A stretch of DNA of 22,371 bases from IMG/VR virus record IMGVR_UViG_3300025086_000275, positions 1 to 22,371 of that record, one strand, 5' to 3'. The notes under the pieces are model-generated. The model saw only the letters and a list, made by a program, of their open reading frames with translations, was not told the DNA's origin and made no database searches. The DNA is from a virus. Positions 483 to 21,869 of this stretch are shown one piece after another (the first letter of the stretch is position 1; each line of letters opens with the position of its first letter). The position numbers were made by a program, and so were the translations under genes.

Positions 483-1187
483 TTAAGGCGTTAGACGAAG
501 AGTGGCAGCACCTAAGTCTCTACTCGGAGTACCAGAGCCAGAGATGTCGCTTACATCCTCGTAGGGAATGGAAGGGTTGAGGTTGTACCAAACAAGTGTG
601 CCGCTGGACGTATTGCTGCTGATATAACGGAAACAATTACCGCAAGCGGTGTAACCGCTGACAGAAGGTGATGACCGCGAATTGTCGTCTTGATAGTGCA
701 GAGCGATTAAAGATGCCTCACCCGCAGTCCACGGCCCCGCATACGGCGGGTCGTCGCGATCAGAGATGTCTGCATATACACTACGGCTAGAGACATTTCT
801 AAACGCCACCATCACAGAAGATGGGCAAACGAAGGTAGAGGTCGTTCCGACACGGCTAGTATTCAAGCTGAAACTGGTGTCAGAAGATGTTGTGAATTTC
901 GTCCAACAGTTAACGAAGGAACTGCCGGACATGCCGTAGCCCCAATATGCCTCGGTCCAGCCCGTGACCGACTGATTTCCGTACATACTAACGTCGTCAC
1001 TAATAAAAACGACTAACAAGTCGCCAGACTGGACGCCGGAAATCGCGCTGCTTCCGAAACTGACGTAGGGCGATATACCCGTCGATGAGCTAGTTTCAAT
1101 GCCATTGGCGAAACCAACGAATGATATGCCGCTGCCGCCACCGCCGGGACCGGATTGAACGGCCGAGAGTAATTTCTTGCTCAACAT
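483..1187 (-). CDS. Putative tail-tip adhesin / receptor-binding protein
   Basis: The ATG at 1187 shares one base with the fibre stop codon (TAATG), giving a 234-residue protein. A start further upstream at 1229 is possible in frame, but it would overlap the fibre by 43 bases and place arginine-rich residues before the natural-looking N-terminus MLSKKLLSAVQSG. That short helix-like segment is followed by a Gly-rich linker (GPGGGGSG) and a Ser/Thr/Gly/aromatic-rich body of beta-strand character, with cysteine pairs near residues 93-120 and 196-199. Location after the long fibre and before the assembly chaperone suggests a receptor-binding tip or adhesin. No named family is recognised with certainty, and the role is inferred from composition and position. 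Confidence 0.6.
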   Translation of the reverse strand: MLSKKLLSAVQSGPGGGGSGISFVGFANGIETSSSTGISPYVSFGSSAISGVQSGDLLVVFISDDVSMYGNQSVTGWTEAYWGYGMSGSSFVNCWTKFTTSSDTSFSLNTSRVGTTSTFVCPSSVMVAFRNVSSRSVYADISDRDDPPYAGPWTAGEASLIALHYQDDNSRSSPSVSGYTACGNCFRYISSNTSSGTLVWYNLNPSIPYEDVSDISGSGTPSRDLGAATLRLTP

Positions 1188-4100
1188 TATGATACCACCG
1201 CGCCGTATAGGCCGCCAACCGACCTCCACAGTACAATTTGAGTATATCCGGTGGTGGCGAGTGTCGGCGCACTACCACCCATCCAAGTCATTGTCGGCCA
1301 CGTCGCGGTGTAACCAGAGCCGTCGGCTAGCATTAGCAACATGGCCTGCCCACTGCTAAAACCTTCAGTGAAGGTGGTATTGCTGGCCAGCGTCTTGTAT
1401 TGGATTGTACCGTTGAGGGGACTTATGTAAGTGCCGGTAAAGTTGTAGATTTTCTCGTCGATGGCATTTTCTAAGTCCAATCTTCCGAAGACTTTCGTAT
1501 AACTACTGGTGGTGTGTAGGGCGTCTGCCATAGCGCCATCGTCAGCAGTGCCGTCTTCATTGACGGTTCTAATTTTTACCGTCCCTATATTGTAATTATC
1601 GCCAGAGGTTAAGGCATAACCGGAAATCTGGGCAAACTTCTCAGCATCGCCGTTGTTTTGTTTTCCGTAGAAGTTGATGTGGCCAATGTCTTCGTAGCCT
1701 GTCGCACTGCTTTTGTCGTAGTAGATGTTAACTTCAGCAGGAGCAGAAGTGTCTTTTGCATCCAGCTTGTCTACTGTCACAGTGTCTTGAACGGTTACTG
1801 CACCAGTAACTGTCCCGCCTGATAACGGCAGGAACGAGCCACCACCGCCACCGCCACCAGTTGACGCGAAGGTAACACTGTCACCAGACGCATCAGTCGT
1901 GATTGTCATGCCGCTGCCGGCGACCAGCGTCAGCGTGTCTGTGGAACTGTCTGCAACGACGTTGCTCTGTCCTGAGACGGCAATGGTCTTGAAGCTGTCG
2001 CTTGCACTACTGCCGCTGGAGCCATTCGCTGCCGATGTGATGCGACCCTGCGCGTCCACCGTGATATTTGAGTTGGTGTAGCTACCCGCACTGACCGAGG
2101 TGTCGGCCAGTTTGGCTGCCGATACTGCATCGTCCGCAATCATGCCAGTGGCGACTGACTGGCTGTCACCTGTGCCGACCAGTGTGCCTGTGTTTGTTGG
2201 CAAGGTCAGGACCGCCGATGACGCAGCGGAGTGTGGTGCTGCTTGCACTGTCTGGGCGTGGGCGTTTCCGCTTTCACAGTAGAATTTTACTTTCGACACA
2301 TTACCCGTGCCGGTGCGGATGTCTATTTGACCGTCCGCTAAAGTGATGCCGCCACTACTGCCATTGCCGTCAATAATTCCAGTGCCAGTTGTCGTTAGAT
2401 TGCCGGTTACATTAGTGTTCTTTTTTAACTGTACCGACGTTTCTTTCAGACGCATGATTTCAGTTAGTGCAGCAGCAGTGCTTGCTGTGGCCGGACCAAG
2501 CTGAAACTGCATCTGGGAGTTGTCTGTGCCGGTATTGTCAGTGTTGACGTGGATGCGTCCAGCCTGACCTGTTTGTTCTGGAAAGCCATTAGTGTGATTA
2601 AAAGTGACGTTTGCGTTTCCGTAGCCATCGTTGATAGTCAGCGCAGCGCCGCCAGACCCACTGCCTGATATGACATTGCTGGTGGTCTTTACCTGCCCTG
2701 TGCCAGTTAGGTTACCGCTGAAACTGTCGGCAGCGTCGGAACGCAGGAAACTTGCGCTGTCAATGCCATCCAGTGTGGCAGCGTCGATGTTGAGGGCGTC
2801 GATGTCTGACTTGGTTTGGTCAGCGGTTGCGTTGTTTTCGATGCCGTTTAGCTTCGACAGCAGCGCATCTGTGAGGGCATTGGTGTCACTATTGTTCTCG
2901 TAGGCCGTCTTGATTTCTGCGTCAGACTGGTCAGCGGTTGCACTCGCTTCGATGCCGTCCAGCTTTGTGCCGTCCGCCGACACATCTCTACCATCGACGG
3001 TCTGTGAACCGGAGAAAGTGATGTTGCCGGTCATCTGGCCACCTGCCAGAGGCAGCTTGGTTGCTATGGAATTAGTGACCGTCGTGCTGAAGTTAGCGTC
3101 ATCGCCTAGAGCAGCAGCTAGTTCGTTGAGTGTGTCCAGAGTAGACGGTGCGCTATCGACCAGGTTGCTTACAGCGGTGTCAGCATAGTTGGTGTAGTAA
3201 CTGCCCTGTTGCCCGTCTAGCAGGTCCGCATCTAGGCCAGAGCCTGTGCCGTCTACAGTTTTGACTGAGGTCAGGATTTCAGACGCTGTCTGGTCCGCTG
3301 TAGCTGAAGCTTCTATGCCGTCTAGCTTGCTGTGGTCGTTGTCGGTGAAAACATTACTGTCGGTTGCACTCTCTACGAGTGTGCGGATTTCAGCGGCAGT
3401 TTGGTCGGCAGTGGCAGATGCTTCTATTCCGTCAAGTTTAGAGTGGTCAGCGTCCGTAAAGGCGTTGGTGTCAGAGTTGCTCTCATACGCTGTTTTAATT
3501 TCACTGGCCGTTTGGTCAGCGGTGGCTGATGCCTCAATCCCATCCAGCTTGCTATGGTCTGCATCAGTGAAAACATTGCTGTCACTGGCGCTGCCGACCA
3601 GCGTTCTAATTTCGGCGGCGGTTTGGTCTGCCGTGGCACTCGCTTCAACGCCGTCCAGCTTTGCCTTGTCAGCGGCAGACATCAGGCCGGCAGAGTCCGA
3701 AGCAGCAGCAGGGATACGAGCGTCGTCTATTGTGCCGGTGAGCTGCGCGGCATCGATAGATTTGTTTGTCAGCGTCTGTGTGCCGCTAAGTGTTGCGACA
3801 GTGCTATCGATTGAGAGACTGACAGCCCCAGCAGTCCCGCCTCCGCTCAAGCCGGTGCCAGCCGTGACCTCTGTGATATCGCCGGGCGGCAGAGCTTCTG
3901 GGTTGCCGGTTGTGGCGTTAAAGCCCAAGGCTTTACCTTTCCGAGTATCCTTGTCGGGCAGGGTCATATCGATATCGGTGGGGTCAAACTTTGGCGCGGT
4001 GAGGGCGCGGCCGGCAGCTTCTTCGCGCTCCGCTATCTGCATCGTTAATGTGTCAAAATCACTTTCCAAAGCATCGGCAGTAATGTTGCCGCCAGCCGTG

Positions 4101-4423
4101 TAAACGCTAGTCCGGGCAACAGCGATATCAGATATTATTGTGACAACTTGGTTTTGCGTTGGCCGGTGGTCTATCCCAGCGCCACTGTCGTGTTTAAATT
4201 TTACGACACAAGTGCCATCAGCTTTTAACCCGGCAGCGGCAGAACCGCCAGTAGTGGCCTTAATGTCGTAGTGTGTTCCTTCGGTTTTTTGTGTGCCTTC
4301 AACAAATACTTTGATGTCGGTTGTTGCGTTGGATTGAAACGCTACAGAAAACTCCTGCTGGTTCGTCCCAGACACAACAGCCCTAATCCGTCTTGTTTGG
4401 TCATTTACTGAAAACTGAGCCAT
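1187..4423 (-). CDS. Long tail fibre with T7-type adaptor domain and 37-residue repeats
   Basis: This 1078-residue fibre starts with a T7 gp17-like adaptor (residues 1-180: FSVNDQTRR, then SDIAVARTSVYTAGGNITA and SDFDTLTM), the part that docks on the tail nozzle. Next is a shaft with six copies of a 37-residue repeat containing KLDGIEASATADQT, four at about 255-390 and two at 487-555. A DADLLDGQQGSYYTNY motif typical of phage fibres lies near 398-413. A run of seven glycines precedes SFLPLSGGTVTGAVTV, a motif common in fibre shafts, and the C-terminal quarter is a distinct, likely receptor-facing head. The N-terminal domain is paralogous to that of the 450-residue fibre just upstream, two bases away. 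The ribosome binding site is weak, so translation may be coupled to the upstream fibre. Confidence 0.9.
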   Translation of the reverse strand: MAQFSVNDQTRRIRAVVSGTNQQEFSVAFQSNATTDIKVFVEGTQKTEGTHYDIKATTGGSAAAGLKADGTCVVKFKHDSGAGIDHRPTQNQVVTIISDIAVARTSVYTAGGNITADALESDFDTLTMQIAEREEAAGRALTAPKFDPTDIDMTLPDKDTRKGKALGFNATTGNPEALPPGDITEVTAGTGLSGGGTAGAVSLSIDSTVATLSGTQTLTNKSIDAAQLTGTIDDARIPAAASDSAGLMSAADKAKLDGVEASATADQTAAEIRTLVGSASDSNVFTDADHSKLDGIEASATADQTASEIKTAYESNSDTNAFTDADHSKLDGIEASATADQTAAEIRTLVESATDSNVFTDNDHSKLDGIEASATADQTASEILTSVKTVDGTGSGLDADLLDGQQGSYYTNYADTAVSNLVDSAPSTLDTLNELAAALGDDANFSTTVTNSIATKLPLAGGQMTGNITFSGSQTVDGRDVSADGTKLDGIEASATADQSDAEIKTAYENNSDTNALTDALLSKLNGIENNATADQTKSDIDALNIDAATLDGIDSASFLRSDAADSFSGNLTGTGQVKTTSNVISGSGSGGAALTINDGYGNANVTFNHTNGFPEQTGQAGRIHVNTDNTGTDNSQMQFQLGPATASTAAALTEIMRLKETSVQLKKNTNVTGNLTTTGTGIIDGNGSSGGITLADGQIDIRTGTGNVSKVKFYCESGNAHAQTVQAAPHSAASSAVLTLPTNTGTLVGTGDSQSVATGMIADDAVSAAKLADTSVSAGSYTNSNITVDAQGRITSAANGSSGSSASDSFKTIAVSGQSNVVADSSTDTLTLVAGSGMTITTDASGDSVTFASTGGGGGGGSFLPLSGGTVTGAVTVQDTVTVDKLDAKDTSAPAEVNIYYDKSSATGYEDIGHINFYGKQNNGDAEKFAQISGYALTSGDNYNIGTVKIRTVNEDGTADDGAMADALHTTSSYTKVFGRLDLENAIDEKIYNFTGTYISPLNGTIQYKTLASNTTFTEGFSSGQAMLLMLADGSGYTATWPTMTWMGGSAPTLATTGYTQIVLWRSVGGLYGAVVS
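2759..2965 (-). repeat. Second cluster of fibre 37-residue repeats (two units)
   Basis: Two more copies of the fibre shaft repeat, at residues 487 and 524 of the long fibre. The first reads KLDGIEASATADQSDAEIKT and the second is more divergent (KLNGIENNATADQTKSDIDA). The 37-residue period is the same as in the first cluster, so this block probably arose by duplication of the first and then diverged. Confidence 0.75.
3254..3661 (-). repeat. First cluster of fibre 37-residue repeats (four units)
   Basis: Four tandem units begin at residues 255, 292, 329 and 366 of the long fibre, exactly 37 residues (111 bases) apart. Each opens with KLDG(I/V)EASATADQT and continues with an AEIRTLV or SEIKTAY half, then DSNVFTDADHS or DTNAFTDADHS. 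Units 1 and 3 share the RTLV form, whereas unit 2 (and unit 5 in the second cluster) shares the KTAYE form, suggesting duplication of a 74-residue pair. The last unit is cut short by a DGTGSGLDADLLDG segment. Codons vary between units more than amino acids do, so the protein repeat is maintained by selection. Confidence 0.85.
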
Positions 4424-17219: not shown

Positions 17220-18071
17220 TTAACTCTCGTCACAGACGACGTCTACAATGCCTTCAACGTCAATCGCACCAGCACCCATCGAAAGCATCGCTGTAATTAA
17301 AAAGCTAGTCTTTTCAGGTACATAGTTGATTTCTGTCTTAGGCGCGATGCCCACAGCGCAACCCAGCGCTGAACGATGGAATGCAAAGCATGTCCTGTCG
17401 TTAGAAGATTTGGGCAAGCCACCTTCGTCACGGTCACCAACCATGTGGAACGTAAAGCCCATCATGGTATTAATTTGACCGCCAACCAAAGCCTGCAGCT
17501 GCTGGTAATCTCCTGAAACAGCCCGCTCATCACCCAGTAAGCCAGCAAGGTTGTTGGCATGAATGACAAAGTGACGGTCTGTTGCAGGCACGTTCAGCGC
17601 ATCCAAAGCTTTCTTGGCTGCGATGATTTTACCAACATTCAGGTTTGACGCTGCCGCTGAACCAGATGTAACCACGGTCTTGGCGACAGTTGAACCAGCC
17701 GAGGCGCTGTTAAGGGCATCGATGATAATCTGGTCTTCACGGCGGCCGATAGCGTTACCAACAAGCTGGGCCAGCTCTTGACGTTCGTCAAAGTTAACCT
17801 TGGCTTGGTTGAACACATCGCTGTATTCCGCTGCTACATAGTCTGTAAGGCTAACGGAAACCTGGCTGAACGCGCCATTGATTGGCACGACATCGGTCTG
17901 AGGTGAACGGACAGAAGCCTGACCCTTACCTACCTTCGGAAATTTTACGGTGTCTCCGACTACACCAGTCCGCATCCGCGCAGTGCCGCGAAGCTGGGCA
18001 GCGGCCTGATAGGCCTGATGCACCTCTGCTTCGAATAGCTGTACAAATGCGGGAGAGAGGTTCGTTGACAT
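17220..18071 (-). CDS. Major capsid protein
   Basis: This 283-residue protein is the shell subunit, placed directly after the scaffold. It lacks a signal peptide and begins MSTNLSPAFVQLFEAEVHQA, followed by GDTVKFPKVGKGQASVRSP, with the mix of an N-terminal arm, beta strands and a central helix (AIGRREDQIIIDALNSAS) expected for an HK97-fold capsid of the short type. Later segments such as MGFTFHMVGDRDEGGLP and PEKTSFLITAMLSMGAGAI match the P-domain and A-domain style of podovirus capsids. The 5' side is unusually well equipped: a 233-bp non-coding leader and a perfect AGGAG (18082-18078) six bases before the ATG, fitting very high expression. No slippery site for a T7-style 10A/10B frameshift was seen. 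Confidence 0.92.
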   Translation of the reverse strand: MSTNLSPAFVQLFEAEVHQAYQAAAQLRGTARMRTGVVGDTVKFPKVGKGQASVRSPQTDVVPINGAFSQVSVSLTDYVAAEYSDVFNQAKVNFDERQELAQLVGNAIGRREDQIIIDALNSASAGSTVAKTVVTSGSAAASNLNVGKIIAAKKALDALNVPATDRHFVIHANNLAGLLGDERAVSGDYQQLQALVGGQINTMMGFTFHMVGDRDEGGLPKSSNDRTCFAFHRSALGCAVGIAPKTEINYVPEKTSFLITAMLSMGAGAIDVEGIVDVVCDES

Positions 18072-18120
18072 ATCTCACTCCTGATTGAACCAAAACAAAA
18101 CTTGCGCCTTGATAGGTTAT

Positions 18121-18135
18121 CGGGGAGTGGCCCCG
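18121..18135 (-). promoter_or_regulatory. Short GC hairpin competing with the leader fold
   Basis: On the minus-strand transcript CGGGG (18135-18131) pairs with CCCCG (18125-18121) around a CCACT loop. The first arm uses bases 18135-18133 that also form the closing stem of the three-way junction. The two structures are therefore mutually exclusive. No T tract follows directly, so this is not a normal terminator. Confidence 0.4.
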
Positions 18136-18189
18136 GCCTCTGGCTATGCAGTACGTCTGCACCCGGTGTATTTCTACACGCCAGACCGG
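18133..18189 (-). ncRNA. Candidate three-way-junction RNA in the capsid leader
   Basis: Read on the minus strand: CCGGTCTGGC (18189-18180) pairs with GCCAGA (18144-18139) and, after a two-base bulge, CCGG (18136-18133), giving a ten-pair closing stem. Inside it are two perfect hairpins. The first is GTGTA-GAAA-TACAC (18179-18166) with a GNRA tetraloop. The second is GTGCAG-ACGTA-CTGCAT (18162-18146), six pairs with one G-U. Linkers are 0, 3 and 1 bases. The tetraloop reads GAAA only on the transcribed strand, supporting an RNA role. No match to a known riboswitch, ribozyme or tRNA is recognised. It lies about 60 bases before the capsid ribosome binding site. Confidence 0.5.
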
Positions 18190-18213
18190 CCCTGTGGGTT
18201 ATCAGTCGTTTTT

Positions 18214-18242
18214 AAAATATACTACAAGCTGCACCTTGTAAA
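18214..18242 (-). promoter_or_regulatory. Promoter-like element for the capsid gene
   Basis: The minus strand reads TTTACA (18242-18237, five of six to the sigma-70 -35 box), then TATATT (18221-18216, five of six to TATAAT) after 15 bases, or TATTTT (18219-18214) after 17 bases. It is followed by AAAAACG, and transcription would start near 18207. An 18-base dyad fills the spacer. A phage-encoded RNA polymerase promoter is equally possible, as T7 puts a strong one before its capsid gene, but no second copy of this sequence was noticed in the window. Confidence 0.45.
18223..18240. promoter_or_regulatory. Operator-like 18-base dyad
   Basis: TACAAGGTGCAGCTTGTA on the minus strand (18240-18223) is a palindrome except for one central-flanking pair: arms TACAAG and CTTGTA, with TGCA in the centre. 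It overlaps the -35 box and spacer of the promoter-like element. It could bind a dimeric regulator or be part of a phage polymerase promoter. Confidence 0.5.
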
Positions 18243-18305: not shown

Positions 18306-19133
18306 TTAGCCATACCGTTTCTGAAACTCTGCTTCGACCTGCCGCGTATAATTCATGTCGGAACCATAGCGTGGGTCAGCCATCTTGCTTTGCATTGCCG
18401 CCCGGAAATCATCCTCTGATGCGCCGGCTTCAGCGACATCGGCGATAGGGATTTGCGACATATCACCTGTCATGTTGCGGACTTTCTGCATGAGGCGCTG
18501 CCCGATAGCCGTGCCGCCCCACATATTGATTTCTGCCCGCTCCTGCTCGGAAATGACGCCCTTGCGCTCTAGGCCATCGGCCCAGTCAATATTGGACTTG
18601 ATGATAGCGTCAGCATTTGCGCCCAGAGCTTTACGCTCAGTTTCAATGTCAGCTTGAATCGCCGCGCCGTTATCGACTGCAAGGCTAGTGATGGTTTCGG
18701 CCAGTTCAGAAAAGGCCGCCTGATTGATGCCGTACTTTTGCGCCCACTCAAGGTACGAGCTTGCGACAGGGTCATCCATCTCGACCCCGGCCTCACTCAG
18801 GACAGCTAGGTCATAGTTCCCATCCTTGGGCGGCTTGTGGTCGCCATGATGAAACTTTTGCTCAAGCTCCTTCTGGCTTTTGACCATGCCTTCTAGGTCT
18901 GGCCCTTCCTTTTCGTCCCAGTGCTTTTCAGGGAACCATTCCGGCCGCTCGTAGATTTCGCTCTCATCCTTGCTCTCAGCCGGCTGGCTGTCTTCCGCAA
19001 GGTGGCCGATTTCCTGATTCTCCTCACTGGTTTTGTCCTCTGCTAGAGCGGCGGCGGCCATCAGCCCATCAGGAGCCGGCGCTTCTGCCGGTTGTTCCTG
19101 TGCCTGCTGGTTATCATCTTGGCTCATCGACAC
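18306..19133 (-). CDS. Capsid scaffolding protein
   Basis: This 275-residue acidic protein lies between portal and capsid, where T7 has gp9. Residues 1-60 are Gln/Glu/Asp/Ala/Pro-rich and disordered. A motif RPEWFPEKHWDEKEGPDLEG with KSQKELEQKF (about 62-95) followed by KPPKDGNYDL is typical of this scaffold family. The rest is helical with a basic C-terminus (YTRQVEAEFQKRYG), the usual capsid-binding end. The start is a GTG at 19133 with GAGG seven bases upstream; an ATG two codons later (19127) would have a 13-base spacing and is less likely. It overlaps the Bbp19-like gene by 20 bases, so its translation is probably coupled. Confidence 0.88.
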   Translation of the reverse strand: MSMSQDDNQQAQEQPAEAPAPDGLMAAAALAEDKTSEENQEIGHLAEDSQPAESKDESEIYERPEWFPEKHWDEKEGPDLEGMVKSQKELEQKFHHGDHKPPKDGNYDLAVLSEAGVEMDDPVASSYLEWAQKYGINQAAFSELAETITSLAVDNGAAIQADIETERKALGANADAIIKSNIDWADGLERKGVISEQERAEINMWGGTAIGQRLMQKVRNMTGDMSQIPIADVAEAGASEDDFRAAMQSKMADPRYGSDMNYTRQVEAEFQKRYG

Positions 19134-21118: not shown

Positions 21119-21375
21119 CATCCACGGGGATTTCGGCCAGCGCCTAGAGTTTGCGACAGGCCTTCTGTTGCGGCGGTATCGCGCCCACGGGCCGTAGCGT
21201 CACCCGTCATAAGCTGCGCCATGCCACCTGCCGCTCTGGCGCGACGGCGCGACGTTGTCCGTCGTCTGGCATTGACCTCGCGTTGTTGTTCACGATTTTC
21301 CTGACGCTCTATGCTTTCCTCCAGACGGGAAGGCGGCGGCGGTGGTGGTTTCGGCCTAGAAAAAATTGCACCCAT
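21118..21375 (-). CDS. Proline/arginine-rich small protein of unknown function
   Basis: This 85-residue protein starts MGAIFSRPKPPPPPP, has a Glu/Gln/Arg-rich helix (EESIERQENREQQREVNAR), an arginine cluster (RRRTTSRRRARA) and a flexible Gly/Thr end. Short proteins with an N-terminal MG..FS.PK and a proline run are frequent near podovirus portals, but their role is not known to me. The ATG overlaps the stop of the gp13-like gene by one base (TGATG). Charge and position suggest a head or packaging accessory protein; this is inference. Confidence 0.7.
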   Translation of the reverse strand: MGAIFSRPKPPPPPPSRLEESIERQENREQQREVNARRRTTSRRRARAAGGMAQLMTGDATARGRDTAATEGLSQTLGAGRNPRG

Positions 21376-21869
21376 CAGAACATCCTTGAATACATCCAGT
21401 AGTCCGCGCCGTCAGGTCCATACCTACGCAGCAAACCTTCCCTCTCAAAATGACATCGTTGTGCCCACCTGTCAGCGCGTTCATTGCGCGTATGAACCGT
21501 GAATTGTAGCCGTTTCGTGTTGGTTTGCTCGGCTGCGTACTCAAAAAAGCGCAGTGAGGCGCGGTGCATGGCGATGACTTTGCGGTCAATTTTGTTGGAT
21601 GGAATCAGCCATGCCTCGGATACGCCGGGCCAAAGCTGCCACATCCCGAACATGGCGTAGATTTCGCCGTCGCCGATAGCTGTATAGGCAACCCCTGTTT
21701 GTGCATAGGCCTGCAAATAATCCTGAAAGCCGCCAAACAGCTCTAGGTTTCTCCGGTCAAACTCGTTCAGCTCACAAACGTATAGGTGGCTGGGCTGCCA
21801 CTCGACAATCTTATGCCGGGGGTAGTCCATCCGCATGATGCGGTTTAGGGTTTCAAGTGAATACGTCAA
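21375..21869 (-). CDS. gp13-like GNAT-fold virion protein
   Basis: This protein of up to 164 residues has the order seen in T7 gp13 and other GNAT-fold phage proteins: a short N-terminal part with HKIVEWQPSHLYVCELNEFD, a middle strand pair (YTAIGDGEIYAMFGMWQLWP, EAWLIPS), a helix of Arg/His and Ala, then QFTVHTRNERADRWAQRCHF and a final YWMYSRMF strand. The typical acyl-CoA-binding R/Q-x-x-G-x-G/A signature is not obvious, so it may be structural rather than enzymatic. The frame opens with TTG at 21869, 16 bases inside terminase, with AGGTG nine bases upstream; an ATG at 21836 would give 153 residues without a clear binding site. In T7 gp13 lies after the tail genes, here before the portal. 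Confidence 0.72.
   Translation of the reverse strand: MTYSLETLNRIMRMDYPRHKIVEWQPSHLYVCELNEFDRRNLELFGGFQDYLQAYAQTGVAYTAIGDGEIYAMFGMWQLWPGVSEAWLIPSNKIDRKVIAMHRASLRFFEYAAEQTNTKRLQFTVHTRNERADRWAQRCHFEREGLLRRYGPDGADYWMYSRMF

Follow-up and report, generated by a model that had tools for sequence, protein, structure and literature searches.

The capsid gene is normally the most highly expressed gene, and phage coat proteins of the MS2/R17 type have translational operators, in which a hairpin tied to a capsid gene carries conserved unpaired A and Y bases. Structured phage RNA can also act near a promoter: putL of HK022 is about 70 nt long and forms two stem-loops just downstream of PL (PMC9378689). 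RNAs of the put class contact the beta' zinc-binding domain, and termination is suppressed. Furthermore, a base-paired 5′ end blocks RppH and 5′-dependent RNase E, a rule derived from E. coli (PMC3997798). Here we describe a structured RNA family that precedes the capsid gene of a group of tailed phages; its membership, fold and location were computed, and its function we infer.

The window, meaning the whole stretch of 22,371 nt analysed here (record IMGVR_UViG_3300025086_000275), is a 22.4-kb virus fragment. An initial annotation had drawn a compact three-way-junction RNA at 18133-18189, a segment flanked by a scaffold gene (18306-19133) and by the gene of the major capsid protein (17220-18071). 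Our analysis agreed that the RNA is a structured, coding-strand capsid leader. However, the drawn span turned out to be the middle of the real element only, since the conserved RNA runs from 18207 to 18105. The features of the locus are as follows.

18214-18242, minus strand: predicted sigma-70-type promoter, TTTACA, 17 nt spacer, TATTTT; start expected near 18207
18105-18207, minus strand: whole conserved leader RNA, about 103 nt (covariance-model match of 108-109 bits, E about 1e-21 to 4e-23), made of P1, P2 (with P2.1 and P3), P4 and a tail to GGCG; predicted capsid mRNA 5′ end
18184-18207, minus strand: hairpin P1, GACUG-[AUAA]-CCC-ACA-GGG-[C]-CGGUC
18199-18202, minus strand: internal loop of P1, AUAA (18202-18199) opposite C18189
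18141-18183, minus strand: P2 domain, a short three-way junction, UGGC (18183-18180) with GCCA (18144-18141) around P2.1 and P3
18166-18179, minus strand: hairpin P2.1, GUGUA-GAAA-UACAC, 99.4% paired, all five pairs covarying
18147-18161, minus strand: hairpin P3, UGCAG-ACGUA-CUGCA, two-set E <= 0.05 for 5/5 pairs
18114-18139, minus strand: hairpin P4, AGG-[C]-CGGGG-CCACU-CCCCG-[AUAA]-CCU
18078-18081, minus strand: Shine-Dalgarno GGAG, which with the following UG is complementary to CACUCC of P4
17220-18071, minus strand: major capsid gene (283 aa; phrog_3437, E 3.6e-51)

The leader at 18105-18207 was the sole covariance-model match within the record. Elsewhere in the window, an acyltransferase-like gene (21375-21869, minus strand) adjoins the terminase, where Methylophilales phage MEP301 has a putative acetyltransferase, and a tail-fibre-like protein (1187-4423, minus strand) carries repeated KLDGIEASATADQT units in its middle. 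Rfam 15 covariance models gave no match at the gathering threshold in the window or 10 relatives, and at relaxed E-values the window leader matched only P36 (12.7 bits, E 4). Twelve further relatives likewise had none at the gathering threshold, with weak matches outside the leader positions, and no description of this RNA was found in the open-access literature. The earlier statement that the RNA matches no known family was thus borne out for Rfam, and the family, absent from Rfam 15, appears to be undescribed.

We then considered how widely the leader occurs. A search with the capsid returned 80 viral loci, in which one leader recurs upstream of the start codons, and searches with three diverged capsids gave the same capsid-leader context. 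A DNA pattern for the middle of the leader matched about 80 viral loci; among the pattern matches listed, every full RNA directly preceded a capsid homologue, and the remaining matches lacked it and were due to chance. A pattern search of genomes identified one MAG contig, again upstream of a capsid gene, and with a permissive viral pattern the only true RNA in 80 viral loci and one MAG contig was that of the MAG, the viral matches being chance hits. Two covariance models, R1 and R2, were built from an alignment of leaders (A3), and a third, R3, models the MEP301-like clade. In diverged clades, the A3-derived models still recognised the leader at E values as weak as about 0.01. Of the R2 matches in 540 kb with E <= 1, 39/39 sat at a capsid leader, and 684 kb of control phage loci yielded no convincing false match. 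One RNA copy was present in each of the 11/11 viral records with a true match and one in MEP301.

Many related phage contigs have a homologous leader before the capsid gene, and so do the isolates MEP301 and Vibrio phage CKB-S2. The MEP301-like leaders, aligned separately, follow the same fold plan with CHHA replacing AYAA. R3 matched leaders L201 (E 5e-7) and L042 (E 1e-5), and R2 matched L042 as well (E 1.4e-6), indicating that the clades are joined through intermediates. CKB-S2 has both P1 and P4, a combination seen in 0/3000 shuffles, while other Vibrio relatives were without the two hairpins. By eye, HTVC010P-like pelagiphage leaders (L414-L493) carry a hairpin resembling P4, in which AGAA or AUAA faces a C and the inner helix varies; the full element and a P1 of the same kind are absent from this group. 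The leader of Roseobacter phage CRP-118 (L094, an autographivirus) also has a P4-like hairpin, GG-C-CCCU-UACG-AGGG-AUAA-CC, as do 5.7% of shuffles.

The case for the full element rests on comparative evidence, since the energy of its 103 nt is weak evidence (z -1.9). In A3, a MAFFT alignment of 44 distinct leaders made from sequence only, 98% of cells pair in the best structure (P1, P2, P2.1, P3 and P4), and double changes occurred in 15/27 pairs, which 0/500 shuffles reached. Unconstrained RNAalifold recovered P1, P2, P2.1, P4 and part of P3. A6, a cross-clade alignment of 39 leaders from covariance-model matches, showed double changes in 29/30 pairs across divergent clades, though it was fitted to the structure and is thus biased in its favour. 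Relatedness between sequences can look like covariation, so we used a tree-based null (our own implementation after R-scape), in which the substitutions of each branch are placed at random sites. Under this null, 20/30 pairs of A6 reached two-set E <= 0.05, 10 passed the one-set test and no pair outside the structure was significant. Six of 30 pairs passed the two-set test in A3, and in A5, the separate MEP301-like alignment, 3/19 passed the one-set test with none outside the structure; as many of the leaders are related, all these counts are of non-independent events.

Individual helices differed in their support. P1 covaried in A3 (GC/AU, CG/GC/UA and UG/AU/CG), and on A6 two-set E <= 0.05 was reached by 6/8 pairs of P1 and 5/5 of P2.1. 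P2 was paired in 91% of cells with some double changes, and no pair was significant against the tree null, so the three-way junction is less certain than its hairpins. The P3 loop usually contains CGU; a pairing of this CGU with the P2.1-P3 linker was dropped, as CGC loops occur by eye without a matching change.

The fold of the middle segment could be reproduced as it had been drawn. The minus strand of 18133-18189 formed a closing stem of 5+5 bp with an AG bulge around two hairpins, the first being GUGUA-GAAA-UACAC, with junction linkers of 0, 3 and 1 nt. Its minimum free energy was -25.5 kcal/mol, compared with -16.1 +/- 2.7 for shuffles (z -3.4; 1/200 as good). The GNRA loop is indeed present on the minus strand only; the plus strand folds too (-23.6), so the strand is not set by energy alone. 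However, the ten-pair closing stem was not conserved. The initial annotation had proposed covariation as the check on its three stems: all ten pairs of P2.1 and P3 were significant on A6, and the outer closing stem failed. At its outer five pairs (CCGGU/GCCGG), as many as 8/44 leaders of A3 lacked the pair at a given position and double changes were absent; in A6 these five were 77% paired, with no significant covariation. They are a trait of the window sequence. Conservation is limited to the inner 4 bp (UGGC/GCCA, P2). CGGUC (18188-18184) pairs instead with GACUG (18207-18203), outside the span first drawn, to form P1, and the GCCGG side belongs to the 3′ hairpin P4. The GAAA loop, found in 26/39 aligned leaders, is replaced or lost in other clades and so is not the core of the element; the core is a duplicated internal-loop motif that lies outside the first reading.

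The position of the element suggests where the capsid mRNA begins. In the window, 6 nt separate the -10 box from P1, and TTTACA-N17-TANNNT had this single match (0.06 expected). A generic promoter scan gave 15 sites including this one, with 14.3 expected by chance; as this is near the chance level, support for the promoter is comparative. Of 45 distinct leaders, 39 had their best sigma-70-like promoter placed so that its -10 ended 5-10 nt before P1, a spacing from which the capsid mRNA is expected to begin with this RNA. The start of this mRNA at the first base of P1 is therefore strongly predicted. Within the promoter spacer (18239-18224, minus strand) lies an imperfect palindrome, ACAAGGTGCAGCTTGT. 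This dyad is kept in relatives with altered letters (ACAAGA..TCTTGT, ACAAAC..GTTTGT) and is absent in several other clades; its retention despite letter changes suggests an operator to which a regulator would bind. Farther upstream, at 18271-18253 (minus strand) and about 10 nt from the -35, the window carries TACAAAAACCAGATGTAGC, and relatives carry GTACAAATACCACATGTAGC and similar sequences; the TACAAAAACCAGATGTAGC element is a possible activator site.

With these observations in mind, we propose that the RNA is a cis-acting 5′-terminal leader that makes the capsid mRNA, transcribed by the host, more stable, and that its duplicated loop is a putative binding site; we put the probability of this reading at about 0.42. 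Host RNA polymerase would start the capsid mRNA at a dedicated sigma-70-like promoter in the gap between scaffold and capsid gene, and the leader would form the first ~100 nt of the message. The intrinsic terminators just upstream in 15/47 genomes, with 0/48 just after the capsid gene, speak for such a separate unit, and the lack of an RNA polymerase in MEP301 (PMC8024684) speaks for transcription by the host. P1 would hold the first transcribed bases in a helix, followed by the middle domain (P2 with P2.1 and P3) and then P4. The base-paired 5′ end may hinder RppH and RNase E and thereby raise capsid output, while the duplicated C/AYAA loop may dock a protein, or an RNA packing that locks the fold. 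A helix at the mRNA 5′ end, expected of such a stabiliser, is predicted here by the promoter spacing and the covariation of P1, and 5′-end protection would be the simplest reading consistent with position. Protection of the mRNA, one of the roles first suggested, is thus the leading function as part of this full stabiliser reading. However, simple 5′ protection needs a hairpin only and leaves the invariant loops and the fixed middle domain unexplained, which makes an additional bound partner or tertiary packing likely.

These loops are the most distinctive part of the element. P1 and P4 share an internal loop in opposite orientation, 5′-G-AYAA-C-3′ versus 5′-G-C-C-3′, in which AYAA is nearly invariant and the flanking helices covary. 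In A6, AYAA stood opposite C in 39/39 leaders in the P1 copy and in 34/39 in the P4 copy, with GYAA opposite U in the other 5 (L050, L051, L031, L037 and L260). This both-sided C.A to U.G swap inside the P4 loop (A6 columns 131-151; E 0.004) may be a single event, and it suggests that the C/AYAA loop is probably an A.C wobble adjoining a YAA bulge. A kink-turn was rejected, as the YAA bulge is followed by covarying Watson-Crick pairs (mostly C-G) and not by tandem G.A and A.G, and a hammerhead core did not fit. A strict descriptor found P1 and P4 together in 48/98 non-redundant leaders, compared with 0.6 in shuffles and 2/632 windows elsewhere; its thresholds were chosen after examples, and shuffles and off-target windows were scored at the same thresholds. 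The two hairpins are a nearly constant 41-48 nt apart in clades with both middle hairpins.

A protein-bound operator is one of the two main rival readings, the other being a put-like antiterminator, though we consider it doubtful. The two inverted loops would be bound by a protein of phage or host (perhaps a dimer), or by the scaffold or capsid protein itself, and capsid translation would be repressed or activated. The near-invariance of the loop within helices that all covary, its inverted duplication and the single copy of the RNA, before capsid genes only, are consistent with this. The loop class also shifts jointly from clade to clade, P1 and P4 either both having AYAA or both having CHHA, an agreement that is overstated because the descriptor demanded the same first loop base in both hairpins. 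However, no candidate protein was identified, and P4 ends 33-57 nt from the capsid start codon, so a bound protein would not directly cover the ribosome site. Moreover, HK97-fold capsid proteins are not known to act as RNA regulators, which also counts against an operator.

Another reading, modelled on the put RNAs of HK022 and unlikely in our view, is that the nascent leader binds host RNA polymerase and makes it read through late-gene terminators; more broadly, its two inverted C/AYAA loops would engage either the polymerase or some dimeric factor and set late-operon processivity. Like putL (PMC9378689), the leader is a predicted promoter-proximal multi-hairpin RNA in a phage using the host polymerase (MEP301 encodes no RNA polymerase; PMC8024684), and the predicted start-site position recurs in the 39/45 leaders. 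A GC-rich terminator-like hairpin also lies downstream (16919-16902, minus strand), beyond a small gene located after the capsid gene, and could limit transcription to the capsid gene and one more. However, a genome has two put RNAs, located on early operons, whereas this RNA occurs once and is tied to the capsid in all clades. An intrinsic terminator precedes the promoter just upstream in 15/47 genomes, and none was found <=150 nt after the capsid gene (0/48). If true, such a mechanism would be transcription control of a new class, whether RNA-only or protein-assisted.

Nearest-neighbour energies for the window leader preferred another fold over the conserved one (-37.0 vs -29.8), so the conserved fold must either arise as the RNA is being transcribed or depend on a partner or on tertiary contacts to hold it. 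The alternative GGCC/GGCC pairing was thermodynamically favoured in the window, but it was not kept by evolution and showed no covariation, and we rejected it. CACUCC of P4 (18128-18123) is complementary to the Shine-Dalgarno region GGAGUG (18081-18076) on the minus strand, and this complementarity tracks within the clade (UUACUCC/GGAGUAA, UUUCC/GGAAA, UCCUCC/GGAGGA). In the window's clade, a two-state translational switch might operate, in which open P4 frees CACUCC to pair with GGAGUG, and the ribosome site becomes free once P1 and P4 form. Consistently, the window Shine-Dalgarno was 17% unpaired in the free ensemble versus 44% with P1 and P4 enforced, and the P4/Shine-Dalgarno match scored 5.74 within a leader versus 5.16 when swapped (0/1000 permutations, relatedness ignored). 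However, the pairing is confined to part of one clade (mean P4-Shine-Dalgarno pairing 0.16 over 46 leaders) and the alternative state lacks covariation, which makes the switch improbable.

A processed small RNA, as the initial annotation had also suggested, or a ribozyme is very improbable: the RNA is compact and GC-rich, but it had no Rfam ribozyme or sRNA match, showed no conserved strand-scission core and is always joined to the capsid gene. A chance fold in a GC-rich spacer, to which the modest energy z-score of the full element might point, is already refuted by the covariation and the cross-clade covariance-model matches.

The shape of the leader has been kept while its letters changed, most likely to protect or regulate the phage's most needed message. 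This RNA family, new to Rfam 15, is fixed to the capsid gene of an abundant marine and freshwater phage group that includes relatives of pelagiphage HTVC010P. Unusual as an RNA element, the duplicated inverted loop with its C.A to U.G swap suggests a single bivalent partner. As the leader is carried by isolates with cultured hosts, MEP301 on Methylophilales and CKB-S2 on Vibrio coralliilyticus, the question of how polymerase-less phages reach high capsid output becomes testable.

Compared with described systems, the leader resembles candidate structured RNAs from metagenomes (e.g. PMC2864571) in having been found by covariation, and differs in matching no Rfam 15 family. With MS2/R17-type operators it shares conserved unpaired A and Y bases and a tie to the capsid gene; unlike them, it carries an internal loop, twice and inverted, in tailed dsDNA phages, with a binding protein that is only putative. 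HK022 putL and putR are likewise phage-encoded structured RNAs with bulged hairpins in a system using host RNA polymerase (PMC9378689), and the promoter-proximal position of putL is matched by the promoter spacing in 39/45 leaders. This likeness is one of architecture and position; put RNAs are about 70 nt with two stem-loops and occur in two copies on early operons, whereas the leader is about 103 nt with four hairpins and occurs in one copy before the capsid gene. The stabilising 5′-terminal stem-loops of E. coli (PMC3997798) and, by prediction, the leader place a helix at or near the 5′ terminus of a strongly expressed mRNA; the former are simple hairpins without conserved sequence, whereas the leader has nearly invariant duplicated loops and a fixed middle domain.
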